Shown: positions 2,970-15,693 of the stretch, one piece after another
How the letters are laid out: each line of letters opens with the position of its first letter
Numbering within the stretch: position 1 is the stretch's first letter
Assembly: GCA_021793215.1 (NCBI GenBank)
Contig: JAJYTE010000025.1
Location: 1 to 37,846 of the forward strand
Length of the DNA: 37,846 bases
Direction of reading: 5' to 3'
Source: Bacillota bacterium
GTDB taxonomy: Bacteria; Bacillota; Sulfobacillia; JAJZYS01; JAJYTV01
Program-made: the position numbers and the translations under genes
The notes under the pieces: model-generated
Seen by the model: only the letters and a program-made list of their open reading frames with translations
Databases searched by the model: none
Told to the model about the DNA's origin: nothing

Positions 2970-3944
2970 TCAGCGCTGGAGGAGCCGGATCTCTCTCGTC
3001 AGTTGCGGCGAGATCTCCAACGCATCCCCGACGACACCGTAGTCGCATATCTTGAAGATCGGGGCTTCGGCATCCCGATTGATGGCGACGATCGTTCGGC
3101 TCGAGGACATCCCCGCAACGTGCTGCACAGCGCCGGAGATGCCGACTGCGATGTAGAGTCCCGGCGAAACTGTCTTGCCGGTCTGGCCCACCTGCTCGTG
3201 GTGCGGGCGCCATCCGGCGTCGACAACGGCGCGGGTTGCTCCGACCGCAGCGCCGAGGCTGTCCGCCAGCTCTTCGACGAGCGCGAAGTTCGCAGGTTCC
3301 CTGAGACCGCGGCCGCCTGCAACGACGATGTCAGCCTCGGACAGCTCTTGACGCCCGCTGGCTTGGCGACGCACCTCCCGGACGGCCGCACGCAGCTCCT
3401 TGGCGTCGACCTCGACGGTCAGGGTGCGCGTCCGCGCCGGTGGACCCTCCTGCGCCGCTGCGGGGAAGGCGTTTGGGCGCACGGCGACGACGGACGTTTC
3501 GGCCAGGCACTCCACTTCCGCGATCACCTTGCCGGCGTAGACCGGCCGACGCGCGGCGAGGTGCCCACCCTTCGCGAAGATCTCCGTTACGTCCATCAGC
3601 AGACCGGCAGCCAAGGTCACGGACACACGCGGTGCGAGGTCTCTCCCCAAGGAGGTTGCACCGAACACCACTGCTTGTGCCGAGGTGGACTCTGCGGCCG
3701 CCTGCACCGCAAGCGCGAACGCTTGTGGGCTATAGGCGGCGAACGCCGGTCCTTCTACGCAGAGCACTTCGTCGCAGTTCGCCGCCGGTACGCCTACAGC
3801 GGAGCGCTGCGCTTGCTGTCCAATGAGCAGTGCGCAGACCCCTCCCGCATGGAGGACCTCGTTCGCCTGCGCCGCAGCGGCGAGGATTTCATAGGAGATT
3901 TTCTTCAGCCCGCCGTCCTGCGCTTCAAGAACTGCCAGAATCAT
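2970..3944 (-). CDS. etfA: Electron transfer flavoprotein, alpha subunit
   Basis: A 324-residue protein with the usual two-part layout of EtfA. The N-terminal alpha/beta domain starts MILAVLEAQDGGLKKISYEI and contains VFGATSLGRDLAPRVS near residue 94. The C-terminal FAD domain runs from about residue 204: VAGGRGLREPANF, GATRAVVDAGW, QVGQTGKTVSPGLYIAVGISG, and INRD...PIF...DYGVVGD. These segments bind the FAD in known ETFs. It pairs with etfB 13 bases upstream. ETF accepts electrons from flavin dehydrogenases and passes them to ETF:quinone oxidoreductase. No acyl-CoA dehydrogenase lies in this cluster, so the DAO-family enzyme at 14557-15693 is a candidate electron donor. It is the last gene of the leftward operon. 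Confidence 0.95.
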   Translation of the reverse strand: MILAVLEAQDGGLKKISYEILAAAAQANEVLHAGGVCALLIGQQAQRSAVGVPAANCDEVLCVEGPAFAAYSPQAFALAVQAAAESTSAQAVVFGATSLGRDLAPRVSVTLAAGLLMDVTEIFAKGGHLAARRPVYAGKVIAEVECLAETSVVAVRPNAFPAAAQEGPPARTRTLTVEVDAKELRAAVREVRRQASGRQELSEADIVVAGGRGLREPANFALVEELADSLGAAVGATRAVVDAGWRPHHEQVGQTGKTVSPGLYIAVGISGAVQHVAGMSSSRTIVAINRDAEAPIFKICDYGVVGDALEISPQLTREIRLLQR

Positions 3945-3957
3945 GCCTCATGCCCCC

Positions 3958-4716
3958 TCAAATGAGCTTGGCCTCCTCGTGCAGCAACCGGACGAGCTCC
4001 TTCGCAAGCGCCGCGGCGTCCATGTCGCGGAGGATAATCCCGGCGCTGCGCTCCTCCGGTACGTGTAGGGCGGTCGTACGCAGGACCGGTTCGCCCGTAA
4101 CGGCGGCGTCGACCGCCACCTGACGGATCTCCTTGCGCTTGGCCTTCATGATCCCGGGCAGCGACGCGTAGCGGGGTTCGTTGAGACCCTTCTGCGCTGT
4201 CAAGACGGCTGGCAGCGAGAACTCCACCACCTCGACGCCGCCCTCGACCTCGCGCTCCGCGACCCCGCCCTCAGGTGAAAGTTCAAGTTCTGTTACGACC
4301 GTGACCTGTGGCCAATCCAGCAGCGCGGCGACCAGCGACCCTACTTGTCCCTGATCGTCGTCCACGGCCTGCTTTCCAGCGATCACGAGGTCTGGACCCA
4401 ACTCGCGGACAACAGATGCGATGGCGCGGGCCGTCGTCAGCGGGTCCTTGGCGTCGGCGCTGACGCGGACCGCCTCATCCGCGCCCATCGCGAGCGCCGT
4501 CCGCAGCGCTTCGTCCGCCTTCTCCCCGCCGACGGTCAGTACCGTTACCTGACCTCCGTGCAGCTCCTTTACCCGCAGCGCTTCCTCCACTGCGAACTCG
4601 TCGTACGGGTTCATGACGTAGTTGACGCCTCGCGGGTCGATCTCTACGCCGCCTGACGACACCTTGATGCGCGTCGCGGTGTCTGGCACCTGCTTCACGA
4701 GAACGACGACGTTCAC
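3958..4716 (-). CDS. etfB: Electron transfer flavoprotein, beta subunit
   Basis: A 252-residue protein beginning MNVVVLVKQVPDTATRIKV, with the EtfB hallmarks NYVMNPYDEFAVEEALRVKE, ALAMGADEAVRV, DLVIAGKQAVDDDQGQVG and a late PRYASLPGIMKAKRKEI. These residues form the AMP site and the recognition loop. GTG at 4716 is the start, with AAGGAGG about eight bases before it. The 74-base gap to the thiolase gene holds no obvious promoter, so it is probably cotranscribed with the upstream catabolic genes and with etfA. Confidence 0.95.
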   Translation of the reverse strand: MNVVVLVKQVPDTATRIKVSSGGVEIDPRGVNYVMNPYDEFAVEEALRVKELHGGQVTVLTVGGEKADEALRTALAMGADEAVRVSADAKDPLTTARAIASVVRELGPDLVIAGKQAVDDDQGQVGSLVAALLDWPQVTVVTELELSPEGGVAEREVEGGVEVVEFSLPAVLTAQKGLNEPRYASLPGIMKAKRKEIRQVAVDAAVTGEPVLRTTALHVPEERSAGIILRDMDAAALAKELVRLLHEEAKLI

Positions 4717-4790
4717 TCCCCATTCCTCCTTTTGCCTTCAAAGCAGTGTGGCGTCGACCACGGCGGTAGGCCCTTCACCCGAGCCGAGGG

Positions 4791-5978
4791 TCACGCCCGC
4801 TGGAGGATCGCGGCCACCCCTTGCCCCACGCCGACGCAGAGCGCCGCCGCGGCGTAGGTGACGTCCTGCCCCTGTAGCTCGTGCAGGAGCGTTGTCACGA
4901 GGCGTGCACCCGACATGCCCAGGGGGTGGCCGATGGCGATGGCCCCTCCGTTCGGATTGACGATCGATGGATCGAGATCAAGTTCCCGCATGCACGCAAG
5001 GCTCTGCGAAGCGAAGGCCTCGTTCAGCTCCACGACGTTGAGGTCCCGAACGCTGAGGTCGGTGCGCCCGAGTGCCTTGCGCAGCGCGGGAACCGGACCC
5101 ATCCCCATGTAGCGCGGGTCCACGCCAACTTCCGCAGCGGACACGAACCGAGCCCTCGGCTGAAGGCCATACCGCCGCAGTCCATCCTCGGAGGCGAGCA
5201 GCACCATCGCCGCGCCGTCATTGATGCCAGACGCGTTGCCGGCTGTTACCGTTCCCTTCGGATGGACGATCGGCCGCAGTGCGGAGAGTTTCTCGAGGTT
5301 AGTGTCCGGCCGAGGATGCTCGTCGACGTCCACTTTCTCGCTGCCTGTGCTGATCGCCACGATCTCATCGGCGAAGCGTCCCTTCGCGTTCGCCGCGCGC
5401 CAGCGCACCTGGCTTTCCAATGCGAAGCGATCCTGGTCCTCGCGTGAAATGGTGTAGCGTTCCGCGACGTTCTCGGCGGTCTCCGCCATGGACTCAAGGG
5501 GGAACCGCGCGGCGAGGCGCGGGTTCTCGAAACGCCAACCGAGCGTGGTGTCGTAGGCGGTGAGGTCCCCGCGTGGGAAACTCGTGGCCGTCTTGCCAAA
5601 GACGAATGGGGCCCGCGACATCGACTCGACACCTCCGGCGAGGAAGATGTCGCCTTCACCGGCGCGTATGGCGCGGGCGGCAGTGATGACGGCGGAAAGC
5701 CCACTGGCGCACAGGCGGTTCACCGTCATGCCCGGCACGCTGTCGGGCAACCCTGCCAGCAGCAGCGCCATGCGCGCGACGTTGCGGTTGTCCTCACCCG
5801 CCTGGTTGGCGGCGCCCGCGAGCACGTCGTCGACCGCATGCGGCGGCAGGCTGGGGTGGCGCAGGAGAAGTTCGACGATCACGTGGGCTAGCAGATCGTC
5901 CGGGCGAAGTTCCGCGAGCTTGCCGCCGTAGCGGCCGACCGGGGTGCGCACGGCATCCACTAGGTAGGCGGCGGGCAT
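4791..5978 (-). CDS. Acetyl-CoA acyltransferase, 3-oxoadipyl-CoA thiolase type
   Basis: A 395-residue thiolase. The acyl-accepting Cys is C90 ([11 protein letters not shown]), the catalytic His is H351 (GHPLGMSG), and the second Cys is C381 (LCVGVGQG). Within the family it reads like PcaF/PaaJ 3-oxoadipyl-CoA thiolases: [56 protein letters not shown] and [16 protein letters not shown] are typical of that subgroup. It would cleave 3-oxoadipyl-CoA to acetyl-CoA and succinyl-CoA. It sits beside a CoA-transferase of the CatI/CatJ kind, which makes the same substrate. AAGGAGGG precedes its ATG and overlaps the end of the aminotransferase gene. Other 3-oxoacyl-CoA substrates cannot be excluded. Confidence 0.85.
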
Positions 5979-5995
5979 GAAGCGGGCCCTCCTTC

Positions 5996-7285
5996 TTAGT
6001 CCAGCCGGGTCAGCGAGCGCTCCAGGCGCTCGAGGAGTGCATCGATCTCCGCGGGAGCCACTATCAGCGGGGGCGCGACCAGCACGTGGTCACCCAGGAC
6101 ACCATCCGGGCCTCCCGAGCCGGCATAGACGATGAGTCCTTCGTCGAAGGCGAAGTCGCTGAGACGCGCTGCGCGGGCACCGGGGCGCGCGTCCGTAGGC
6201 AGGACGAGCGCCTGCATCAGTCCAAGTCCCCGGACCTCGACCACGCTCTCCTGACGGGCGCCCAGTTCCTCGAGGCCTGCGCGCAGGAGGGCGCCCATCT
6301 CGGCAGCGCGGACCACGAGGCGCTCACGCGCGAGGATCTCGAGCGCCTTCGCCCCAGCGGCGCAGGCGACAGGGTGTCCGCCGTACGTGAAGCCGTGCGC
6401 GAAACGTCCGCTGCCCGCCCGCACCGCTTCGTAGACCCGGTCATTCGCGATCACCGCACCTAGCGGCGCGTAGCCGCCGGAGAGGCCCTTCGCAGCGGTG
6501 ACGAGATCCGGCGCGACGCCAAAGTGCTCCATGCCGAGCACCCTGCCCGTACGGCCGAATCCGGTCATCACCTCGTCGGCGATGAGGAGGGCGCCGCACT
6601 CCGTGGCGATCCTGCGCACCGCTTCCATGTAGCCCGCATGCGGCACGAGCCCGGAGTTCGCAGAGCCGCCGACCGGCTCTATGAGGATCGCCGCGACAGA
6701 CGCGGGCCCCGCACGCTCGACCGCAGCCCGCAGCGCGCGCGTGCAGTCGCATTCGCCGTCCTCGGCCACGCCGGGGCAGCCGGGATCCGGAGGCGAGAAG
6801 TGCGCGAACGCGGGGCTCAGCAGCGGTGCGTATGGCCTGCGCCGCATGATGTGGCCGGATGCGGACAGCGCCCCAAGGGAGTTCCCGTGGTACGACGCCC
6901 AGCGGGCCAGCACGCGGAAGCGCTGCGGCTCTCCGACCTCAAGAAAGTACTGACGTGCCAACTTAATCGCGGTCTCGATGGCCTCGGAACCGCCGGAAAC
7001 CGGGTAGGTGTGACGCAGCCCGAAGGGCAGCAAGGCTGCGATGCGCTGGGCGAGTTCCTCCTGGGCCGCCGACGTGAAGCGCATTGTGTGGGCGAAGGCG
7101 ATTCGCTCCGCCTGTTCCGCCATAGCCTGCGCGATCTCCCGACGCCCGTGGCCGAGGTTCGCGACGAGCGCGCCCGACGCGCCATCAAGGTACTGCCGGC
7201 CGTCGGTGTCCCAGAGGAAGACCCCTTCGCCGCGGGCGATCGTCGGATAGCGAAGCGCGGGTGCGCGGTAGAAGACATCGGTCAC
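5996..7285 (-). CDS. Class III PLP-dependent aminotransferase (first copy)
   Basis: A 429-residue fold-type I aminotransferase of the omega-amino acid/aspartate aminotransferase class III family. Visible are the cofactor loop [15 protein letters not shown] (about 97-111), [19 protein letters not shown], the PLP-pyridine Asp in [15 protein letters not shown], and the Schiff-base Lys K266 in [13 protein letters not shown]. It uses a GTG start overlapping the stop of the CoA-transferase beta gene (GTGA), so translation is coupled. Members act on terminal amines or beta-amino acids with pyruvate or 2-oxoglutarate as acceptor. The insert [13 protein letters not shown] near residue 170 is typical of the subgroup close to beta-alanine:pyruvate and taurine aminotransferases. 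Substrate unknown. Confidence 0.85.
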
Positions 7286-8016
7286 GGGTTCATCTCCTCC
7301 TGCCGGCGCAGTTCGCCCAGAACGCGCAGTTCGTCCGGCGTCGGCGGAGGGATCTCCTCGATCCGAGGCGCGATGCGCAGCGGCCAGCCGGTCTTCGCCC
7401 GCACCTCTTCGACCGTCACACCCGGATGGAGCGCGACGAGCCGCATCTCGCCGTCCTCGTCGTAGTCGAAACTCCCGAGGTCGGTGACGACGGTCGCAGG
7501 TCCGTTTGGTCGTCTTGCTCCAGGCGGGTGTCCCGGAGAGGTCACGAAGTCAACGTGCTCCGGGAAGCGGCGAAGGTCATGGGGCATTAGGACGATCGTT
7601 CGTCGCGCGAAGGAGGCGATGTCCGCCGCACCTCCCGATCCGGCGAGCCGAGCAGTAGGGCTTTCATACGGCCCGATCACCGTCGAGTTGAGATTGCCGC
7701 GCCGATCAATCTGCGCCCCGCCCATGAACCCAACGTCGATCCAGCCGGTCTGTAGGTACTGACTGAACAGGTCGTGGATCGGAAGCACGCAAAGCGACGT
7801 GCGGACGAGGTCCGGGTCCCCGATCGAGAGCGGCAGCTTCGGGGGAGCTGCATCGACCACGCCGGATTCGTAGATGAGGACGAGGCGGGGTGCGTGAAGT
7901 CGCTTCGCGATGTTGGCGGCCAGGTTCGGCGTGCCCACCCCTACCAGCACGCGCTCGCCGTCGCGCAGCAGCCGCGCGCCGCCGACCGCTAGTCTGCTCT
8001 GCCCGTCAACCGGCAT
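7282..8016 (-). CDS. CoA-transferase beta subunit (CatJ/glutaconate CoA-transferase type)
   Basis: A 244-residue family I CoA-transferase small subunit. The catalytic Glu is E50 in LVLIYESGVVD, which forms the glutamyl-CoA thioester in this family. GERVLVGVGTPNLAA, GFMGGAQIDRRGNLNSTVIG, GSGGAADIAS and MPHDLRRFPEHVDFVTSPG are typical of the GctB/CatJ/IpdB group. It overlaps the alpha-subunit gene by 11 bases and the next gene by four. The thiolase two genes downstream points to 3-oxoadipate as substrate, with succinyl-CoA as likely CoA donor. A steroid- or glutaconate-type substrate is possible. Confidence 0.85.
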   Translation of the reverse strand: MPVDGQSRLAVGGARLLRDGERVLVGVGTPNLAANIAKRLHAPRLVLIYESGVVDAAPPKLPLSIGDPDLVRTSLCVLPIHDLFSQYLQTGWIDVGFMGGAQIDRRGNLNSTVIGPYESPTARLAGSGGAADIASFARRTIVLMPHDLRRFPEHVDFVTSPGHPPGARRPNGPATVVTDLGSFDYDEDGEMRLVALHPGVTVEEVRAKTGWPLRIAPRIEEIPPPTPDELRVLGELRRQEEMNP

Positions 8017-8881
8017 GTTGGGCTGCCTCCTTCAGAGCCGCGAGGCGTCCCTTTGGCAGGAGCGCGGTGTAGGCGGCCCGGTCCGCGGTTCCGAAGACGA
8101 ACCGCTTCAGCCACTCCTCGGTAGCGGATGGATCACGGGCGAGGGCGTCCCACTCTGTGTAGAAGGTCGTGTCCCGGTCGTACCGGCCGAGCACGTAGGA
8201 GGGGTGTGCTCCCCACGGCGCTAGGGAGACGCTTTGCACCCGAAAGCTCGGCAAGAGGAGGTGGTCGCGCTCGGCGCGCAGCGAAGCAGCCGACCGCACC
8301 TCCTCCACGGAGGCGATGACGACGTCGGCCGCAAGCGCCGCCTCCTTGATCTCGCCGAGGAGGCCCCAGGCGTAGAGGTTGCCGTCCTCATCGGCACAGT
8401 GGGCGTGGACAAGCGTCACGTCCGGCCGCAGCGGCGGCACCACGGCCACTTCTTCGTCCCCGAAAGGGCTGCGGACGTGCGGCCGCGGACGGCGCCGGCT
8501 GAGGTCGTTTTCCAGGGAGCGCACCGGCCAGAAGGGAAGGCCTGCTGCGCCGGCCGCGAGACGGGCGACGAGTTCGAAGTGCGTGTACTCTTCAATTTCG
8601 ACTTCCCCGCTCTCCACGGCGCGGCGGAAAACCGGCAGATTCCCGACGCCGGGGTTCCCGGCGTAGCTGAAGACGACGCGGTCCGCCACGTGGGCCGCGA
8701 GCATCTGGTCGTACACCAGGTCTGGCGTGGCGCGGGACAGGGTAAGGTGTCGGCGCCCCTGCCGGATGATCTCATGACCGAAGGCGAACGGGATCAGATG
8801 CGTGAAGCCGGCGAGATAGAGGTGGTCGCCGTCGCGCACATAGCGAGCAACCGCGTCCTGGAGCGGGAGGAAGTCTGCCAC
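8006..8881 (-). CDS. CoA-transferase alpha subunit (CatI/glutaconate CoA-transferase type)
   Basis: A 291-residue partner of the beta subunit. It closely follows the CatI pattern of 3-oxoadipate CoA-transferases: GFTHLIPFAFGHEIIRQG, LTLSRATPDLVYDQML, SYAGNPGVGNL, IEEYTHFELVARLAAGAAGLPF, RPDVTLVHAHCADEDGN, and WGLLGEIKEAALAA. The start is GTG at 8881, a few bases past the aldehyde dehydrogenase stop. CatI/CatJ convert 3-oxoadipate to 3-oxoadipyl-CoA in chlorocatechol degraders. Here no ring-cleavage genes accompany it. The glutaconate CoA-transferase family also includes IpdA, so the substrate is inferred from neighbours. Confidence 0.85.
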   Translation of the reverse strand: MADFLPLQDAVARYVRDGDHLYLAGFTHLIPFAFGHEIIRQGRRHLTLSRATPDLVYDQMLAAHVADRVVFSYAGNPGVGNLPVFRRAVESGEVEIEEYTHFELVARLAAGAAGLPFWPVRSLENDLSRRRPRPHVRSPFGDEEVAVVPPLRPDVTLVHAHCADEDGNLYAWGLLGEIKEAALAADVVIASVEEVRSAASLRAERDHLLLPSFRVQSVSLAPWGAHPSYVLGRYDRDTTFYTEWDALARDPSATEEWLKRFVFGTADRAAYTALLPKGRLAALKEAAQHAG

Positions 8882-8886
8882 CTAAG

Positions 8887-10449
8887 TCACTCCCAGGGGT
8901 AGCGCAGCTTCTGCGTAATGGTCTGGGCCTGCAGGAAGAAGCTCAGGTAGTCGGGACCGCCGACCTTCGGCCCCGTGCCCGACATCTTGTAGCCGCCGAA
9001 CGGGTGGACGCCAGCCATGGCCCCCGTCGAGCTTCGGTTGAGGTAGAGGTTGCCGACGAAGAAGTGCTCCCGCACGTAGTCGAGTTCCTGCGGGTCGCGG
9101 GCGAACACCGCGCCCGTGAGTGCATACTCGACGCCGTTCGCGATTTCTACCGCCTCCTGCAGGGTCCGGGCGCGGAGGACGGCGAGGAAGGGGCCGAAGA
9201 TCTCCTCTTGCGCGATCGGGCTGTCCGGTGCCACATCGTCGACGATGGTCGGGGTGATGAAGTGGTTGCCCTTGGCCGTCCCGCGGCGCACCATGCGGCC
9301 GGCGCCGGGCGCGGCGTCGATGTAGGACGTGATCTTCTTCTCCGCCGCGTCGTTGATCACGGGACCGAAGGCGCGATTCTCCGAAGCGTGCCCCGCGTCA
9401 GCGGCGATGCGGTCGGCCTCCCCGACGACGGCCTCCAGGAACTCGTCGTGGATCTCCTCCAGCACGATAAGGCGAGAGGTGGCAGAGCACTTCTGCCCCT
9501 GGAACCCGAAGGCGGATAGTGCAACCTCCCGGGCCGCCCACTTGCGGTCCGCGGAGAGAGTGACAATCGTGGCGTTCTTGCCGCCCATCTCCGTCATCAC
9601 GCGCTTGAGCTGCCGCTGGCCGTCCACGAGTCCGCTCGTGTTGCGGTGGATCTGTGTACCCACCGCGCGGGAACCGACGAAGGCCACGAACTGCACGTCA
9701 GGGTGGCGCACCAGCACGTCGCCCACTTCCGGTCCGAACCCAGGTACGAGATTCAGCACGCCGGGCGGCAGGCCCGCATCCTCGAAGACTCTATAGAGCT
9801 GATGCGCAATGGTGGACGCCTCTTCGGCAGGTTTCAGCACGACCGTGTTGCCGGCGGCGATCGCTGCGACGGACATACCGAGGGGTAGGGTCGCGGGGAA
9901 GTTGAAGGGGGAGATGACGGCGCCGACGCCCAGCGGCAGGTAGCGGTACTCGTTCATTTCGGAGGGGATCGGTTGAATCTCTTTGCCCTGGTTGAGCGCC
10001 AAGAGCTGCCGCGCGTTCCACTCGAAGTGGTCGATGGCCTCGGCGATCTCCCCGTCCGCCTGGTCGAAGTTCTTCCCGACCTCGAAGGCCAGCCAGGCGA
10101 GCAGTTCACGACGCCGCTGGCGCAGAATGTCACCAGCGCGCAGGAGCAGGGCCGCCCGCTCCCACGCGGCGACTCGGGACCACGCACCGAATGCCTTGCG
10201 CGCTTCTTGCACCGCGGCGTCCGCGTCCTTCGCAGAGCCCATCGCGATCTCGCCCACTACGCTTCCGGGGTCGGCGGGATCGCGCGACAGGAAGACGTTG
10301 TCCGACTGCATCCTCCTGCCACCGATGATCAGCGGGTAGCTCCTGCCGAGCTGCGCGCGCACCTTCTCAACCTCGGTGCGCATTCTGTCCCGTTCCGCCT
10401 CAGTGCCAAAGTCCAGCAGAGGTTCGTTCTGGAACGGCACGAGAGACAT
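8887..10449 (-). CDS. Aldehyde dehydrogenase, glutamate-gamma-semialdehyde (P5C) dehydrogenase type
   Basis: A 520-residue NAD(P)-dependent aldehyde dehydrogenase. The catalytic Cys is C321 (FGFQGQKCSATSRL), the general base is E288 (MTEMGGKNATIV), and the dinucleotide loop is FVGSRAVG (257-264). The N-terminal stretch, the GQKCSA box and the end (HPFGGYKMSGTGPKVGGPDYL) match RocA/PruA 1-pyrroline-5-carboxylate dehydrogenases. The family oxidises short amino-acid semialdehydes that can cyclise. There is no proline dehydrogenase nearby. In this operon it could oxidise the semialdehyde made by one of the aminotransferases. It follows iclR by 15 bases, with GAAGGGGAG before its ATG. Confidence 0.88.
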   Translation of the reverse strand: MSLVPFQNEPLLDFGTEAERDRMRTEVEKVRAQLGRSYPLIIGGRRMQSDNVFLSRDPADPGSVVGEIAMGSAKDADAAVQEARKAFGAWSRVAAWERAALLLRAGDILRQRRRELLAWLAFEVGKNFDQADGEIAEAIDHFEWNARQLLALNQGKEIQPIPSEMNEYRYLPLGVGAVISPFNFPATLPLGMSVAAIAAGNTVVLKPAEEASTIAHQLYRVFEDAGLPPGVLNLVPGFGPEVGDVLVRHPDVQFVAFVGSRAVGTQIHRNTSGLVDGQRQLKRVMTEMGGKNATIVTLSADRKWAAREVALSAFGFQGQKCSATSRLIVLEEIHDEFLEAVVGEADRIAADAGHASENRAFGPVINDAAEKKITSYIDAAPGAGRMVRRGTAKGNHFITPTIVDDVAPDSPIAQEEIFGPFLAVLRARTLQEAVEIANGVEYALTGAVFARDPQELDYVREHFFVGNLYLNRSSTGAMAGVHPFGGYKMSGTGPKVGGPDYLSFFLQAQTITQKLRYPWE

Positions 10450-10464
10450 GGACCCACTCCCCTT

Positions 10465-11274
10465 CTATGGCTTTCCTCTGTAGCCGGCCGCTTGGGATAC
10501 GTCGGCCGCGGTGGCCACCAGTTCCTTGCGCATAGGGCCGAACAACTGATCGAGCGGGGTTCTGAGGCTATGGGTGGAGATGTTGATCGCCGCCACGATC
10601 CGCCCTCCCGCGCCCCGGACGGGGGCTGCGATGGACCTGAGACCAGGCTCGAGCTCCCCGTCGGCGAAGGCGCAGCCAAGCTTTCGCGCCTCCTCGAGGT
10701 CTGCAAGCAGTTGGTCCGGGCCCGTACGCGTCGCGGCCGTGTAGGGCGCCCAGGGGGGGTCACCGAGGAGCTCGAGGAGCGCCGCGCGGTCGAAGTCCAT
10801 CAGCAGTGCCTTGCCCAGCGATGTCGCATGGACCGGCAGGCGAGATCCGACGTGCAGGTTGACGGTCAGGATGCGCTGCGCCGCCGCGATTCGGTTTACG
10901 TAGAGGACTTCGTCTCCATCGCGGATCGCCAGGTTCACGGACTCCCGCGTCCGCCCGGCGAGGTCCGTCAGGTAAGGCTGCGCGATGTCGGGAATCGACA
11001 GTGTCTGCAGGAAGTGCGCTCCGAGGTCTAGGACCTTCGGCGTCAACGAGAACTTGCGGGAACCTGCCTGCTTCAGGTAGCCGATGTCGCAGAGCGTCAA
11101 GGCGATGCGTCGTGCAGTCGCCTTGTTCAGTCCGCTCAGGCGCGCAAGATCCGTGAGGTTGAGCTGGCTTGCGCCGGCGGTGAACACCTCAAGGACTTGG
11201 AACGCCTTGGCGACGCTGTTGATGAAGTATCTCGGCGCGCCCGCAGCGGCGTCCTCCCCACCGGGTGTACGCAC
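10465..11274 (-). CDS. IclR-family transcriptional regulator
   Basis: A 269-residue regulator with an N-terminal winged helix (YFINSVAKAFQVLEVF, LNLTDLARLSGLNKATARRI, IGYLKQAGSRKFSLTPKVLDLG) and a C-terminal IclR effector domain (SVNLAIRDGDEVLYVNRI, VGSRLPVHATSLGKALL, GCAFADGELEPGLRSIAAPV, ALNISTHSLR-like AAINISTHSLR). GTG at 11274 is chosen because AGGAGG lies six bases upstream. An ATG at 11301 would place that ribosome site inside the gene. It heads the leftward operon. Palindromes TACGCA-N-TGCGTA cover its start codon and leader, which implies autoregulation and control of the divergent genes. Effector unknown, presumably a pathway intermediate. Confidence 0.9.
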   Translation of the reverse strand: MRTPGGEDAAAGAPRYFINSVAKAFQVLEVFTAGASQLNLTDLARLSGLNKATARRIALTLCDIGYLKQAGSRKFSLTPKVLDLGAHFLQTLSIPDIAQPYLTDLAGRTRESVNLAIRDGDEVLYVNRIAAAQRILTVNLHVGSRLPVHATSLGKALLMDFDRAALLELLGDPPWAPYTAATRTGPDQLLADLEEARKLGCAFADGELEPGLRSIAAPVRGAGGRIVAAINISTHSLRTPLDQLFGPMRKELVATAADVSQAAGYRGKP

Positions 11275-11280
11275 TGCACT
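11268..11280. promoter_or_regulatory. Candidate IclR operator, site 1
   Basis: TACGCA-C-TGCACT, overlapping the iclR GTG start. The left arm matches sites 2 to 4 exactly or nearly. It lies 20 bases, about two helical turns, from site 2. Confidence 0.5.
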
Positions 11281-11287
11281 CCTCCTA

Positions 11288-11300
11288 TACGCACTGCACA
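11288..11300. promoter_or_regulatory. Candidate IclR operator, site 2
   Basis: TACGCA-C-TGCACA in the iclR leader. It shares the twelve bases TACGCACTGCAC with site 1. Confidence 0.5.
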
Positions 11301-11348
11301 CCTATGACCTCAGATTGGCACCGCCGTCGCGTGACGTCAAGGGCGTGT

Positions 11349-11376
11349 TTGGAACGCAGTGCGTACCCTCTAGGAT
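11349..11376 (+). promoter_or_regulatory. Predicted promoter of the rightward aminotransferase operon
   Basis: TTGGAA (11349-11354) and TAGGAT (11371-11376) are 16 bases apart. The palindrome at 11351-11367 occupies the spacer, so bound regulator would block or remodel this promoter. The leader to the GTG at 11595 is long, about 210 bases, and holds site 4. Confidence 0.3.
11351..11367. promoter_or_regulatory. Candidate IclR operator, site 3 (best palindrome)
   Basis: GGAACGCA-G-TGCGTACC is a 17-base palindrome with a single mismatch (A against T at the third position). It is the most symmetric member of the set and defines the motif TACGCA-N-TGCGTA. Confidence 0.55.
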
Positions 11377-11501
11377 AATTGCGCTTGTGCGCGCATGGGC
11401 CTGCCAGTCGCCAGTAATCGGAACCTAGATGCCAGCACGTTGTAGTAGTGACATTGCGGGATTTAGGGTGAAGCGGCAAGGTGGCTGTAAGTTGCCGGTG
11501 T

Positions 11502-11516
11502 GTACGCATGGCGTAC
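11502..11516. promoter_or_regulatory. Candidate IclR operator, site 4
   Basis: GTACGC-ATG-GCGTAC is a perfect inverted repeat in the leader of the rightward operon. Aligned to the motif it reads TACGCA-T-GGCGTA. Apart from the operator sites and promoter, nothing else was recognised in 11302-11594. Confidence 0.45.
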
Positions 11517-11594
11517 GGGAGTGTCGGAGCGCCATGAACGTTTACGCGGGGCGCTCGGCGACTGGACTAGTGCGTTTGGGGAGGACGACCCGAA

Positions 11595-12857
11595 GTGACG
11601 ATCGCGGAACGGTACCAAAGATCCATCATGCCGGTTCAGCCGATGGAGACATCGCTGCAGTTCAGCCACGGGCAGGGATGCCACCTCTACACTCCGGATG
11701 GGCGCGAATACCTCGACCTCGCCACCGGAATCGCCGTGAACGCGGTCGGCTACAGCCATCCGCGCGTCGTCGCGGCGATCGAGGCACAGGTGCGCAGGCA
11801 CCTGCATCTTTACAGCGGCACGGGCTACCAGGACGCCTTGATCGATTACGCGGAGGCGATCCTCACCGAGGTCGGGGCTGGTCACAAACTCTTTTTCGGA
11901 AACTCAGGCACGGAAGCCGTCGAGGCGGCGATCAAACTCGCGAGGTTCGTCACCGGCCGGCCGGGGATTATCGCCTTCCGCGGCAGCTTTCATGGGCGCT
12001 CGCTCGGAGCGCTGAGCCTGACGGATTCCGCTGCGCGCTACCGCTCTCCCTACGAACCGCTCCTTCCCTCCGTGTACCACGTCGCGTATCCGGCTCCGAC
12101 ACGGCTTTCGGTGGACCCTGACCAAGCGCTGCGGCTGGTGCAGCAGCAGATCACGTCCCTCCTTGAGACGGACATCGCTCCCGACCGGGTCGCGCTCATC
12201 GTCCTCGAACCCATCCAGGGTGAGGGCGGCTACGTCATCCCGCCAGACGGTTTCCTACCGTGGCTGCAGGACCTTGCGCGAGCGAACGGCATTCTCCTTG
12301 CTGTAGATGAAGTCCAATCCGGGATGGGGCGCACGGGCCGGATGTTCGCGTACCAGCACAGCGGCATCTCGCCCGACATCGTGATCATGGGCAAGGCGCT
12401 CGGCGGCGGGATGCCGCTTTCTGCGATTGCGGCGCGCGAATCGATCGCCGACGCCTGGGCGCCCGGTAGCCACGGGACGACCTTCGGCGGAAATCCGGTG
12501 TCGTGCGCCGCAGGCCTTGCGACCTTGCAGGTGATCAAGGAAGAGGACCTAATGGACCGGGCGGTGCAACTGGGTGCCCTTGCTCTGGACCGCCTCTCTC
12601 CCTTGCTGCGGTTGGACGCGGTGCGGGACGTCCGCGGGCGCGGGTTGATGGTCGCGCTCGAGTTCGCGGGCCCACAGGGTGGCGCGCTGGCGCCGCGGGT
12701 CATGAACGACATGCTCAATGAGGGGGTGATCCTGCACACAGCCGGACTCCACCACGAAGTGATTCGCTTGATGCCGCCCCTCAACATCGACGACGAGAGC
12801 TTCGGAAGGGCGCTCAGCACGCTTGCCCGCGTCGTCGAAGCGGCCGCCAGGGGATAG
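11595..12857 (+). CDS. Class III PLP-dependent aminotransferase (second copy, GABA/ornithine type)
   Basis: A 420-residue class III aminotransferase resembling 4-aminobutyrate and acetylornithine/ornithine aminotransferases. It has YLDLATGIAVNAVGYSHP, FFGNSGTEAVEAAIKLAR (100-117), FRGSFHGRSLGALSLT, EPIQGEGGY, LLAVDEVQSGMGRTG with D238, and the PLP Lys K267 in MGKALGGGMPLSA. It starts with GTG after GGGGAGG. It heads the rightward unit of aminotransferase, permease and FAD enzyme, divergent from iclR and the operon that holds the first aminotransferase. Two class III enzymes in one island suggest a substrate with two amino groups, or two successive transaminations. Confidence 0.88.
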   Translation: MTIAERYQRSIMPVQPMETSLQFSHGQGCHLYTPDGREYLDLATGIAVNAVGYSHPRVVAAIEAQVRRHLHLYSGTGYQDALIDYAEAILTEVGAGHKLFFGNSGTEAVEAAIKLARFVTGRPGIIAFRGSFHGRSLGALSLTDSAARYRSPYEPLLPSVYHVAYPAPTRLSVDPDQALRLVQQQITSLLETDIAPDRVALIVLEPIQGEGGYVIPPDGFLPWLQDLARANGILLAVDEVQSGMGRTGRMFAYQHSGISPDIVIMGKALGGGMPLSAIAARESIADAWAPGSHGTTFGGNPVSCAAGLATLQVIKEEDLMDRAVQLGALALDRLSPLLRLDAVRDVRGRGLMVALEFAGPQGGALAPRVMNDMLNEGVILHTAGLHHEVIRLMPPLNIDDESFGRALSTLARVVEAAARG

Positions 12858-12921
12858 AGGCGGCCGTCGCGGCGCAGCGAGGCGCCGCATCTACGCTTGT
12901 TGATCGAAAGGGGAAAGCCAG

Positions 12922-14520
12922 GTGGCACGACCGACAGGGACCGGGCTCAGGAGAGAGATGACCCTACTTCAGCTGGTTCTCGCGAACGTTGGAGGAATCG
13001 TGGGCTCCTCTTGGCTCCTCGGCTCGATGATCTCCGCGCAGTTTGCAGGCCCTGCAGCGATTTTGGCCTGGGTGATCGGCGGCATTCTGACCTTGTTCAT
13101 GGCCATGCCGTTCGTGGAGTTGAGTTCGACAATTCCGGAGGCCGGCGCACTCGTACGCTACCCGCAGTACTCCCACGGGAGTCTCGTGAGCTTCTTCACC
13201 GGATGGGCCGTCTGGCTCTCGTACGTCGTCGTCCCGCCGATCGAGGCAGAAGCGTCCGTCCAGTACGCGAACACCTACATCCACGGCCTCTACTCCGCGA
13301 GCGGTACGTTGACGCCTGTCGGCATCCTCATCGCGGCAGTTCTGGTCGTCGTCTTCTTCTACATCAATTACCTCGGCGTGCGGGTGTTCGCCCGTGCGAA
13401 TGCGGTCGCTACTGTGTTCAAGTTCGTCGTGCCGGCGTTGACGATGATCCTTCTGATCGTCGCGGGATTCCACGGCGGGAACTTCACGGCCCCGCAGCAC
13501 GGAGGGTTCGCACCGTTCGGCGCCCAGGGCGTGATGACGGCAATCGCCGTCGGTGGCGTCGCCTTCGCCTACCAGGGATTCCGGCAGGCCATCGACATGG
13601 CGGGAGAAAGTCGCAATCCGCATCGCGATGTGCCGCGGGCGGTCATCTACTCCCTGATCATCGCCATCGTCCTTTATACGCTCCTCCAGGTCGCGTTCAT
13701 CGGCTCCCTCTCGCCAAGCGATCTCGCCCACGGTTGGGCCAAGATCAACTTCTCCTCACCGTTCGCCAGCCTCGCGGTCGCACTCAACCTCGGTTGGCTG
13801 GCAGTGCTGCTCTACGTGGACGCCTTCGTGTCTCCGTCCGGAACGGGCCTCGTGTATGAAGCATCAAGCGCACGCGTTCTCTACGCCATGCCGAAAAACG
13901 GCTACGGTCCCAAGGCGCTGCTCGACATCCACCCGAAGCTTGGCGTCCCGCATGTCGCGTTGATCGTGAGCCTGGTCGTCGGCCTCCTGGCACTCCTGCC
14001 GTTCCCGGCGTGGAGTTTGCTGGTCGGCATCGCCAGCACGCTCGCGATCATCTCGTACATCCTCGGACCGGTCTCTGCGATGGTGCTGCGGCGCACCGGC
14101 GCCCACTTGCACCGCACGGTGCGTCTGAAGGGACTCCACGCCTGGTCGATCCTCGGGTTCATCGCCGGCATGCTCATCATCTACTGGACGGGTTGGCCGA
14201 ACGACCTCTACATCGGGCTGGGTCTCGTGGTGGGCCTGCTCATCTACGCCTACTACTTCATGAAGAACAAGCTGCCGATCGAAGACCTGCGCTCCGGCGT
14301 TTGGCTCATCGTCCTGACCGTGTTCATGGTCCTGATCAGCTACCTCGGGTCCACCAACTTCGGCGGCATCAACGTGATCAAGTACCCGTACGACCTCTTG
14401 GTCGTCATCGTCGCTGCGGTCGGCTTCTTCTACTGGGGCATCGCTTCCGGCCGCGAGACGAGCGAAGTGCGGGAACACGATGCGATGGCGGGGGCCGCGG
14501 CACCTGCCGGTGACGACTGA
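12922..14520 (+). CDS. APC-superfamily amino acid/polyamine permease
   Basis: A 532-residue membrane protein with about twelve hydrophobic segments. The first helix follows the APC pattern (VLANVGGIVGSSWLLGS), with a broken helix around GGI. The sixth helix carries VAFAYQGFRQAIDMAGESRNPHRDVPRA, the family's F-E/D-x-A-GE-x-x-NP element. Members import amino acids or amines with protons. It lies 64 bases after the aminotransferase gene and starts with GTG after AAAGGGGAAAG. It is therefore the likely uptake system for the substrate of this island. Specificity cannot be read from sequence. Confidence 0.88.
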   Translation: MARPTGTGLRREMTLLQLVLANVGGIVGSSWLLGSMISAQFAGPAAILAWVIGGILTLFMAMPFVELSSTIPEAGALVRYPQYSHGSLVSFFTGWAVWLSYVVVPPIEAEASVQYANTYIHGLYSASGTLTPVGILIAAVLVVVFFYINYLGVRVFARANAVATVFKFVVPALTMILLIVAGFHGGNFTAPQHGGFAPFGAQGVMTAIAVGGVAFAYQGFRQAIDMAGESRNPHRDVPRAVIYSLIIAIVLYTLLQVAFIGSLSPSDLAHGWAKINFSSPFASLAVALNLGWLAVLLYVDAFVSPSGTGLVYEASSARVLYAMPKNGYGPKALLDIHPKLGVPHVALIVSLVVGLLALLPFPAWSLLVGIASTLAIISYILGPVSAMVLRRTGAHLHRTVRLKGLHAWSILGFIAGMLIIYWTGWPNDLYIGLGLVVGLLIYAYYFMKNKLPIEDLRSGVWLIVLTVFMVLISYLGSTNFGGINVIKYPYDLLVVIVAAVGFFYWGIASGRETSEVREHDAMAGAAAPAGDD

Positions 14521-14556
14521 CCCACTAGGGATCGCTCACTACATGGAGGCGTCTGG

Positions 14557-15693
14557 ATGACCTACGATGTAGCCATTGTCGGCGGCGGTGTATGGGGGTC
14601 TGCGGCGGCCCAGGAAGCCGTGCGAGCCGGTGCGAAGTCCGTACTCCTAATCGAGAAGAACATCGGCCTCGCGCACGAAAGCTCGGCGAAATCCGGAGGC
14701 ATCCTCACGGACCTGCTCTGGCACCCCGAGGACCAGGGGCTGGTATCCCGCAGCCGCGCACTCTACCGGGACGCGAGCGAACTCGCAGGCGACGCATCGG
14801 TCGTCCGGCCGCTTGGCCAGTTGACACTCGCCGAAGGCGAATACGTCGACCAGCTTCACCGGCGCGAAGCCGACCTCCGTGTACGCGGTGTGCGCTTCGA
14901 AATGCTCGACAAGGATGAGATCAGGCGGCGCTATCCGAACCTTGACCGGCTGAGGGATGGGACCTCGGGAATGTGGACGCCGGACGACTGGGTCGTGAAC
15001 CCGACCGCCTTCTCGCAGGTGGTCGTCAATCGGGCCAGGGAGAACGGACTGGTCCTGCGGGCGGGCTGCCGGGTCGAGCGGATTGAGGTCGAGGAGCGGA
15101 GAGTGGTGCTCGAGGCGGGCGGCGAGCGTTTCGAAGCCGCCCGCGTGCTAATCAGTGCAGGCACGTGGTCCCGCAAGCTGGTTCGGACTGCCGGATTCGA
15201 CATTGCGCTGCGTCCGTACCGCGTGCAACTTTCATCTCTGCAACTGGCCCAGGCGCATGAACTTCCGATCGTGTGGCATCTCTCCACGGACGTCTACATG
15301 GTCCCGGAGGGACCGGAGAACATCCTTGCCGGCGACGGCACGAGGTTGTGGGAGCATGACCCGGACGACTACCAGCAGACCGGGGACGACGAGTTCCAGA
15401 TGAACATCGCCGAGAGGCTTCTGGACCTCTCGAGTCTCGGAGACCGCGCCGGTCTGCGCAGCAGCTGGGCTGGGCTGGGCGGGGCGACGCCGGATCGGCG
15501 CCCGCTGCTTGGGCCGCTTGCCGATCGCCTGTTTACGGCGTGCGGCGACAACGGAATCGGCGTGATGCGCGGACCCGCGGTCGGGGAACTGGCAGCGCGC
15601 GTGGCGCTCGGCCTCAGCGAGGCGCCGCACTTGCGCCCGGACCGTTTCCCCTATACAGACTTCGAAATCCGCCCCGGCTTCACCCTGGAGTAG
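14557..15693 (+). CDS. DAO-family FAD-dependent amino acid/amine oxidoreductase
   Basis: A 378-residue flavoprotein of the D-amino acid oxidase superfamily (sarcosine oxidase beta/glycine oxidase-like). The Rossmann FAD motif VAIVGGGVWGSAAAQEAV starts at residue 5, followed by EKNIGLAHESSAKSGGIL. The middle shows RVLISAGTWSRKL, and the end carries SSWAGLGGATPDRRPLLG and ACGDNGIGVMRGPAVGELAA, the second dinucleotide-facing loop. A GGAGG site precedes the ATG. It is third in the rightward unit, after the permease. Enzymes of this group oxidise primary or secondary amines of amino acids; some pass electrons to ETF rather than to oxygen. The etfBA genes across the island make a dehydrogenase role plausible. 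Confidence 0.85.
   Translation: MTYDVAIVGGGVWGSAAAQEAVRAGAKSVLLIEKNIGLAHESSAKSGGILTDLLWHPEDQGLVSRSRALYRDASELAGDASVVRPLGQLTLAEGEYVDQLHRREADLRVRGVRFEMLDKDEIRRRYPNLDRLRDGTSGMWTPDDWVVNPTAFSQVVVNRARENGLVLRAGCRVERIEVEERRVVLEAGGERFEAARVLISAGTWSRKLVRTAGFDIALRPYRVQLSSLQLAQAHELPIVWHLSTDVYMVPEGPENILAGDGTRLWEHDPDDYQQTGDDEFQMNIAERLLDLSSLGDRAGLRSSWAGLGGATPDRRPLLGPLADRLFTACGDNGIGVMRGPAVGELAARVALGLSEAPHLRPDRFPYTDFEIRPGFTLE

Follow-up and report, generated by a model that had tools for sequence, protein, structure and literature searches.

The window analysed here is a stretch of 37,846 nucleotides from a contig of a Bacillota bacterium (JAJYTE010000025.1). Positions 2,970 to 15,693 hold an island of eleven genes that an earlier note, made from the sequence alone, had read as a possible catabolic route to 3-oxoadipate. 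Searches of the window's open reading frames with Pfam and NCBIfam profiles found every one of these genes where that note had placed it and, as it had said, no ring-cleavage gene among the eleven (Table 1). The island encodes two class III aminotransferases (here denoted AT1 and AT2), an aldehyde dehydrogenase (ALDH) resembling 1-pyrroline-5-carboxylate dehydrogenase (P5CDH) and a two-subunit CoA-transferase (CoAT). On the minus strand the order of transcription is IclR, ALDH, CoAT-alpha, CoAT-beta, AT1, thiolase, EtfB and EtfA, the last two being subunits of an electron transfer flavoprotein (ETF); AT2, the APC permease and the DAO-family gene lie on the plus strand, divergent from the IclR side. 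The reading frames of AT1 and CoAT-beta overlap by 4 bases and those of the CoAT subunits by 11, suggesting that these three genes form an operon. Like the thiolase and IclR, the ALDH stays under its nearest NCBIfam cut-off (636.3 against 648 bits); the DAO-family protein reached no NCBIfam cut-off and had no PDB relative at E 1e-15. An IclR operator was considered between IclR and AT2 and not assigned, as only one weak inverted repeat lies there in the window.

Table 1. Genes of the island, in order of position, with the basis of each assignment
Gene product	Positions	Strand	Basis and remarks
EtfA	2970-3944	-	PF00766; adjoins the cluster, probably outside the conserved module
EtfB	3958-4716	-	PF01012; adjoins the cluster, probably outside the conserved module
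Thiolase, 3-oxoadipyl-CoA type (PcaF/PaaJ clade)	4791-5978	-	TIGR02430, 572.4 bits, cut-off 597; tree
AT1, class III aminotransferase of the PRK07483/YodT group; proposed beta-(C3)-transaminase	5996-7285	-	Profiles, contexts of relatives, tree
CoAT-beta, CoA-transferase subunit B (Gct/CatJ type), catalytic Glu50	7282-8016	-	Alignment with 1poi_B
CoAT-alpha, CoA-transferase subunit A (Gct/CatI type)	8006-8881	-	1poi_A, E 9.1e-34
RocA/P5CDH-like ALDH; proposed 3-aminoadipate-semialdehyde dehydrogenase	8887-10449	-	Profiles, tree, 27 diagnostic positions
IclR regulator, nearest to the PcaR/PcaU/PobR group	10465-11301	-	TIGR02431, 239.5 bits, cut-off 284.75
AT2, class III aminotransferase (GabT/ArgD-like); proposed C6 (omega) transaminase	11595-12857	+	Profiles, tree
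APC amino acid permease, proposed importer	12922-14520	+	PF13520
DAO-family FAD oxidoreductase	14557-15693	+	PF01266

Conservation of the cluster across the class

We searched 154 genomes of the Sulfobacillus-containing class and read loci only where CoAT-alpha matched at E 1e-40 (26 genomes); relatives of at least 50% identity occur in 21 of the 154. AT2, ALDH, both CoAT subunits and AT1, hereafter the core, stand together in 12 genomes, including that of the window and G117, whose AT2 is cut by a contig end. In G004 and G124 the visible part of the core is present and a contig end hides the rest, giving 14 in total. Two further loci from metagenome-assembled genomes (L013 and L014), which do not differ from each other in the rows compared, also carry the core. 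The earlier note had suggested looking for the same gene set elsewhere, and comparison across the class shows the core recurring as one cluster; the two aminotransferases and the P5CDH-like dehydrogenase that it had singled out are thus borne out as one conserved unit. This recurrence is not due to chance, and three or more families of the class have the island.

An IclR gene lies at or near 13 of the 14 core loci and an APC permease at or within about 5 kb of eight; the DAO-family gene was seen at five, contig ends limiting the view for some. The ETF genes, which the earlier note had counted in the set, were seen beside the cluster in the window and at none of the other 13 loci, though some contigs stop soon past the thiolase (0.6 kb in G009), and ETF was rejected as a component of the pathway. 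These neighbour counts define the module as AT2-ALDH-CoAT-AT1 with an IclR regulator.

Seven of the 21 genomes fall outside the core group. G008 combines the CoA-transferase with an AT2-like gene of 32% identity, without the rest of the core; G012, G013, G014, G016, G140 and G141 have the CoA-transferase in other arrangements, several of them with a different thiolase (PF22691 type), DUF35-type and aldehyde ferredoxin oxidoreductase genes, and with an AT1 relative of 43-48% identity in G013, G016 and G141. Five CoA-transferase matches below 40% (G036, G058, G081, G107, G150) have no adjoining relatives of AT1, AT2 or ALDH. A different module, found at L111, L125, L112 and L110, joins the island type of CoA-transferase to a PF22691 thiolase (confirmed in L111 and L112), a synthase-like gene, a DUF35-type gene (confirmed in L111) and an aldehyde ferredoxin oxidoreductase (confirmed in L111 and L125, judged by eye in L110, whereas none was seen in L112); an AT1 relative is also present in L111 and L125. 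L010, L011, L012, L015, L016 and L017 were omitted from the trees described below as duplicates of the loci of G009, G004, G002, G120, G112 and G118.

Proposed route and its enzymes

We propose that the island serves to break down free beta-lysine (3,6-diaminohexanoate) or a 3-amino-C6 compound very close to it, a reading drawn from sequence comparison to which we give a probability of about 0.45; that beta-lysine itself is the substrate is possible, at slightly less than even odds. Beta-lysine would either be imported by the APC permease or be supplied by KamA in the genome of the window itself. AT2 would transaminate C6 to give 3-amino-6-oxohexanoate (3-aminoadipate semialdehyde; ring form 1-pyrroline-5-acetate), the P5CDH-like ALDH would oxidise this semialdehyde to 3-aminoadipate, and AT1 would transaminate C3 of 3-aminoadipate to give 3-oxoadipate. 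The Gct/CatIJ-type CoA-transferase would then form 3-oxoadipyl-CoA, which the PcaF-type thiolase would cleave to acetyl-CoA and succinyl-CoA. The yod/Stadtman route solves the cyclisation problem by N-acetylation; oxidation at C6 would solve it without. C6 transamination, P5CDH-like oxidation, C3 transamination and a CatIJ/PcaF tail taken from aromatic catabolism, with no N-acetylation, would make up a new oxidative beta-lysine route, which we put forward tentatively. We infer the substrates of AT1, AT2 and the ALDH, the order of the steps and the entry of beta-lysine. From the catabolic route to 3-oxoadipate in the earlier note, the 3-oxoadipate end and the conserved unit stand, the beta-amino part stands less firmly and ETF drops out.

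At the C6 end, the ALDH tree retained the island-locus fragments L041-L054, labelled as paralogues, and we use its branches and not its group statistics. A branch with support 100/100 splits the island ALDHs from a group of 16 comprising two proline-operon P5CDHs, a Deinococcus pair and 12 paralogues, ten of them from core-island genomes; the island ALDH does not fall with the proline-operon P5CDHs. The P5CDH clade holds a separate ALDH from 10 of the 14 core genomes. Of the other four, G009 and G086 possess a second ALDH, unplaced in the tree, and G116 and G124 have none at E 1e-100. The branch, together with the P5CDH-clade paralogues of ten core genomes, indicates that the island ALDH is not the usual P5CDH of these genomes. 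Twenty-seven positions, each at least 90% uniform, distinguish the island rows from the P5CDH rows. A Phe-to-His change at 141, shared with the Deinococcus pair, stands four residues past the Glu that aligns with E137 of the Thermus P5CDH, which we take to be a substrate-binding residue; a Cys-Ser pair, presumably catalytic, is kept, as are a Gly-Ala and a Phe that we assume to form the anchor loop. 3-Amino-6-oxohexanoate closes to a five-membered imine one CH2 longer than 1-pyrroline-5-carboxylate, and a modified P5CDH would therefore be expected to act on this homologue. The island AT2s lie on one side of a branch with a Shimodaira-Hasegawa-like approximate likelihood ratio test (SH-aLRT) value of 99.

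Within the family of the window, an ALDH paralogue (L208-L211) joins the island ALDHs through a long branch. L233 (G000:C84) and L235 (G002:C88) hold a further P5CDH-like ALDH gene near ATP synthase and MurA-like genes, as judged by eye; in the tree, its relatives from four other genomes of the family are linked to the island ALDHs by a long branch.

Two Deinococcus plasmids carry in a row genes for a CaiB-type CoA-transferase, KamA, a DUF4274 protein or a hydrolase, an AT2-type aminotransferase and a P5CDH-like ALDH. Their KamA is 69-70% identical to that of the window's genome, the next plasmid match reaching 58%. By analogy, this KamA-AT2-ALDH row would be the first half of the proposed route. 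Of the 27 diagnostic positions, the Deinococcus ALDH has the island residue at 10, the P5CDH residue at 12 and neither at 5.

The likeness of AT2 and the ALDH to GabT/ArgD/OAT-type aminotransferases and P5CDH would also fit a pathway in which the two enzymes convert ornithine, lysine or another alpha-diamino acid to glutamate or 2-aminoadipate, while AT1 and the CoA-transferase serve an independent second pathway for a beta-amino or keto acid under the same regulator. We consider this unlikely, since 10 of the 14 genomes have their separate ALDH in the clade of the proline-operon P5CDHs and since the functions of the core are inherited together.

At the C3 end, AT1 scored 426 bits with PRK07483 and 379 bits with PRK06917, both below cut-off, and its best structural match was 3I4J. 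PMC6522883 describes YodT as uncharacterised, lists 3I4J as its structure, and reports in vitro activity for KamA of B. subtilis while giving its role as unknown. The AT1 tree, limited to relatives of at least 255 bits and with the short copies L146-L163 dropped, has 45 rows, 15 from islands and 30 others, and the island AT1s form a separate clade in it. Nine of the 30 other relatives lie beside a gene for a beta-keto acid cleavage enzyme (BKACE; three confirmed by PF05853, two annotated as such, four judged from sequence), five are in yod-type operons of Bacilli (KamA being visible in three of these, L185, L186 and L187), three accompany a thiolase and a short CoA-transferase, and three are near a CoA-transferase of the island type; the remaining contexts include the Deinococcus pair, without such neighbours. 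The yod-type locus L186 combines a YodT-group aminotransferase (742.7 bits) with a CoA-transferase pair, a deacylase, AblB (311.7 bits) and KamA (635.2 bits). These contexts suggest that enzymes of the AT1 group often sit where a beta-keto acid would be made. Together with the kamA-AT2-ALDH row of Deinococcus, they bear out, if more weakly than other parts, the beta-amino substrate of the earlier note: by analogy the beta-amino end is moderately supported, and a 3-amino substrate is somewhat favoured. The S58 peptidases at some island loci and a KamA whose other known sinks are missing, both described below, add to this support. As a candidate relative of AT1, Kat (3-aminobutyryl-CoA aminotransferase) was dropped, since PMC3149608, which describes Kat and the fermentation route, presents it as HemL-like.

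A diamine or omega-amino acid such as hexamethylenediamine or 6-aminohexanoate could instead be carried to adipate by two transaminations and aldehyde oxidation, followed by CoA transfer, unlinked beta-oxidation with ETF, and PcaF-like thiolysis, which would account for two class III aminotransferases, the ALDH, the CoA-transferase, a thiolase that falls in the right clade, and the adjoining ETF. We regard this as quite unlikely, as ETF was seen in the window only and many relatives of AT1 are encoded alongside beta-keto acid enzymes. Moreover, acyl-CoA dehydrogenase, hydratase and 3-hydroxyacyl-CoA dehydrogenase are absent among the eleven genes, the rest of the genome not having been searched for them and most unlabelled families that recur at island loci not having been scanned.

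For the final steps of the beta-lysine route, comparison places the thiolase in a clade with two pca-cluster thiolases and one Thermus thiolase, with support 100/99 and apart from six others. This tree has 14 rows, among them one from Thermus and the pca-cluster rows L167 and L170 (two in each protein tree). The thiolase and CoA-transferase trees do not include Azospirillum L166 or the VLB120 thiolase L230, and the short copies L040-L065 were dropped from these two trees and that of AT1. The Thermus thiolase of the tree adjoins a benzoate-CoA ligase. Among the best 25 of 1,468 plasmid thiolase records, 13 are named pcaF or paaJ (58-59% identity), six are Thermus entries named 'thiolase family protein' (59%) and six are unannotated. 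The earlier note had called the thiolase PcaF-like and had named a place outside the 3-oxoadipyl-CoA group as evidence against its reading; the enzyme lies inside that clade, its score falling short of the cut-off of the NCBIfam pcaF equivalog (Table 1).

By its match to 1poi, the CoA-transferase belongs to the glutaconate type. Alignment shows that E50 corresponds to the Glu of the ESG motif in glutaconate CoA-transferase 1poi_B, and this catalytic Glu is kept in the island enzyme and absent in AibB (5n01_D). We read the contexts of six plasmid relatives. Three, of 44-46% identity, are in pca operons of Azospirillum, Rubrobacter and Stutzerimonas, where they adjoin PcaF or a thiolase and, in Stutzerimonas, an IclR gene as well; three haloarchaeal relatives of 47-51% are in non-pca contexts. 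The CatI/CatJ-like character suggested in the earlier note thus agrees with three of the six relatives with known surroundings. In the tree the island CoA-transferases form a single clade (99/100) that stands beside the pca group, at sister level, and is not nested in it. From these comparisons 3-oxoadipate would be the likeliest acid of the CoA-transferase, 3-oxoadipyl-CoA is a probable end product, and the 3-oxoadipate end as such appears well supported. It is very unlikely that the island forms the last part of a standard aromatic beta-ketoadipate pathway (CatIJ, PcaF, PcaR-like IclR) with unrelated amino acid genes next to it: the CoA-transferase, thiolase and IclR are all pca-like, but AT1, ALDH and AT2 accompany the CoA-transferase more constantly than the thiolase does, and an intradiol dioxygenase (PF00775) was found in none of the 21 genomes, against 4 of 14 control genomes in the same search (genes for the phenylacetate and benzoyl-CoA routes were not searched for), which argues against an aromatic source.

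Supply of beta-lysine

The earlier note had proposed a search for lysine 2,3-aminomutase elsewhere in the genome, and one KamA-family gene, encoding 449 amino acids, was found on another contig (C84). Residues 17-422 of the protein align with the solved lysine 2,3-aminomutase 2A5H, and R134, D293, D330 and K337 are conserved; besides Arg134, we take Asp293 and Asp330 to be lysine-binding and Lys337 to be the pyridoxal phosphate residue. Its score with TIGR03820 is just under cut-off (523.2 against 525.4 bits), compared with 432.8 bits for the glutamate type and 404.3 for the arginine type. AblB was absent from the window's genome at E 0.001 and over cut-off in 1 of the 154 genomes, EpmA was over cut-off in none of 26 genomes, and KamD was found in none of the ten genomes of the window's family, that of the window included. 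These known sinks of beta-lysine are therefore missing in the window's genome. The best EpmA matches under the cut-off, in frames of about 500 amino acids, are probably lysyl-tRNA synthetases, and beta-lysylation of EF-P was rejected as the sink of KamA since no EpmA passed the cut-off. KamA was likewise rejected as an obligate partner of the island, there being no positive co-occurrence over the 154 genomes; because KamA does not go with the core, most island genomes would need beta-lysine from outside. As judged by eye, GH15 glycosidase-like and trehalose-phosphate synthase-like genes are constant neighbours of KamA in the family (L139, G000:C84; L144, G002:C88; L236, G001:C382), with a MurJ-like gene on its other side in L139 and L144.

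Peptidases of the S58 family, which we understand to include the beta-peptidyl aminopeptidases BapA and DmpA, lie beside the island in G084, G086, G087 and G118 (4 of 14), and in L013 and L014 one lies less than 4 kb from AT2; chance is an unlikely explanation for this neighbourhood. S58 genes are widespread in the class (120 of 154 genomes), and three of the four genomes with S58 beside the island share one genus. Each of 12 of the 14 core genomes has two to four S58 genes, G117 and G124 not being among the matches. SBP_bac_5 binding proteins lie near several island loci. The window's genome holds a second such pairing outside the island (G000:C68:53874-56215), where the gene next after another class III aminotransferase (L004) encodes an S58 peptidase. 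In G009 a gene of the M20 peptidase family stands between IclR and DAO (L109, 7428-8789, confirmed), with a similar gene in G004; the L109 enzyme may deacylate a conjugated substrate.

Points against the proposal and known systems

Several observations weigh against beta-lysine degradation by the island. KamA is not in the island. It is present in 71 of the 154 genomes, and its distribution leans away from the core (3 of 14 core genomes against 68 of 140 others; Fisher p 0.089, negative direction); in the window's family KamA is found in nine of ten genomes and the core in four, and G009 (76% complete) has the core without a KamA match. The neighbourhood of KamA is also kept in G001, which has no island, so the KamA of this family must have another role besides. 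The thiolase was seen at 5 of the 14 core loci, contig ends limiting the view. AT1 is nearer to PRK07483, of unknown substrate, than to YodT, and 8 of its 30 non-island relatives have other or unread contexts (L183, L188, L191 and L192 were read and show no gene of the kinds listed above). The Deinococcus AT2 and ALDH, about 43% identical to those of the island, are not their closest sisters, the ALDH falls on the P5CDH side of the tree, and the relative of AT1 is encoded at another place on the plasmid, with neither of them beside it. With S58 genes in the numbers given above, the S58 linkage is weakened, and the family is presumably not strictly beta-specific; the M20 genes of G004 and G009 mean that an acylated substrate could be used there.

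The Bacillus yod operon (yodT-S-R-Q-P with kamA) presumably encodes an N6-acetyl-beta-lysine route. Like the island, yod-type operons set an AT1-type aminotransferase beside a CoA-transferase pair, L181 having a GabT-type aminotransferase and an ALDH as well, and L186 an ALDH. Unlike the window, L186 carries the AblB acetyltransferase, a DapE/ArgE-family deacylase and a short CoA-transferase of the PcaI/ScoA type, whereas the window has a Gct-type CoA-transferase, a PcaF-type thiolase and a P5CDH-type ALDH, with KamA on another contig. The M20-family deacylase of the yod route has no counterpart among the window's eleven genes; an M20-family gene is present in the clusters of two near relatives. 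The lower beta-ketoadipate pathway (CatIJ/PcaIJ, PcaF, PcaR-type IclR) shares with the island the types of CoA-transferase, thiolase and IclR and differs in that the island has linked aminotransferases and an ALDH, with no intradiol ring-cleavage enzyme in the 21 genomes searched. The kamA cluster of Deinococcus matches the first half of the route in its enzyme types, but its adjoining CoA-transferase is of the CaiB type and its AT1 relative is elsewhere on the plasmid. An AT1-type gene occurs in one cluster of the clostridial lysine fermentation kind (KamA, KamDE, Kdd, Kce), L184; the window's genome, in contrast, has no KamD, nor do the other nine genomes of its family. L184 (G418:C1) itself, where an AT1-group aminotransferase gene stands beside BKACE, KamE-like and KamD genes, looks like a lysine fermentation cluster.

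Our literature search, which mostly left out subscription journals and is weak evidence of novelty, found nothing that joins beta-lysine with 3-oxoadipate or ketoadipate, no match for '3-aminoadipate' and nothing relevant on the yod genes. If the proposal is right, it describes a new way of degrading a beta-amino acid, joins metabolism of the lysine type to the beta-ketoadipate pathway and introduces 3-aminoadipate as a metabolite. PRK07483-type aminotransferases would also gain a function, as would P5CDH-like genes labelled in databases as proline genes, and it offers a testable proposal for the role of the kamA cluster of Deinococcus.

Outside the island, the window encodes two similar putative ChrB-like (chromate-resistance) domain proteins, judged by eye, at 282-746 on the minus strand and 1283-1831 on the plus strand.

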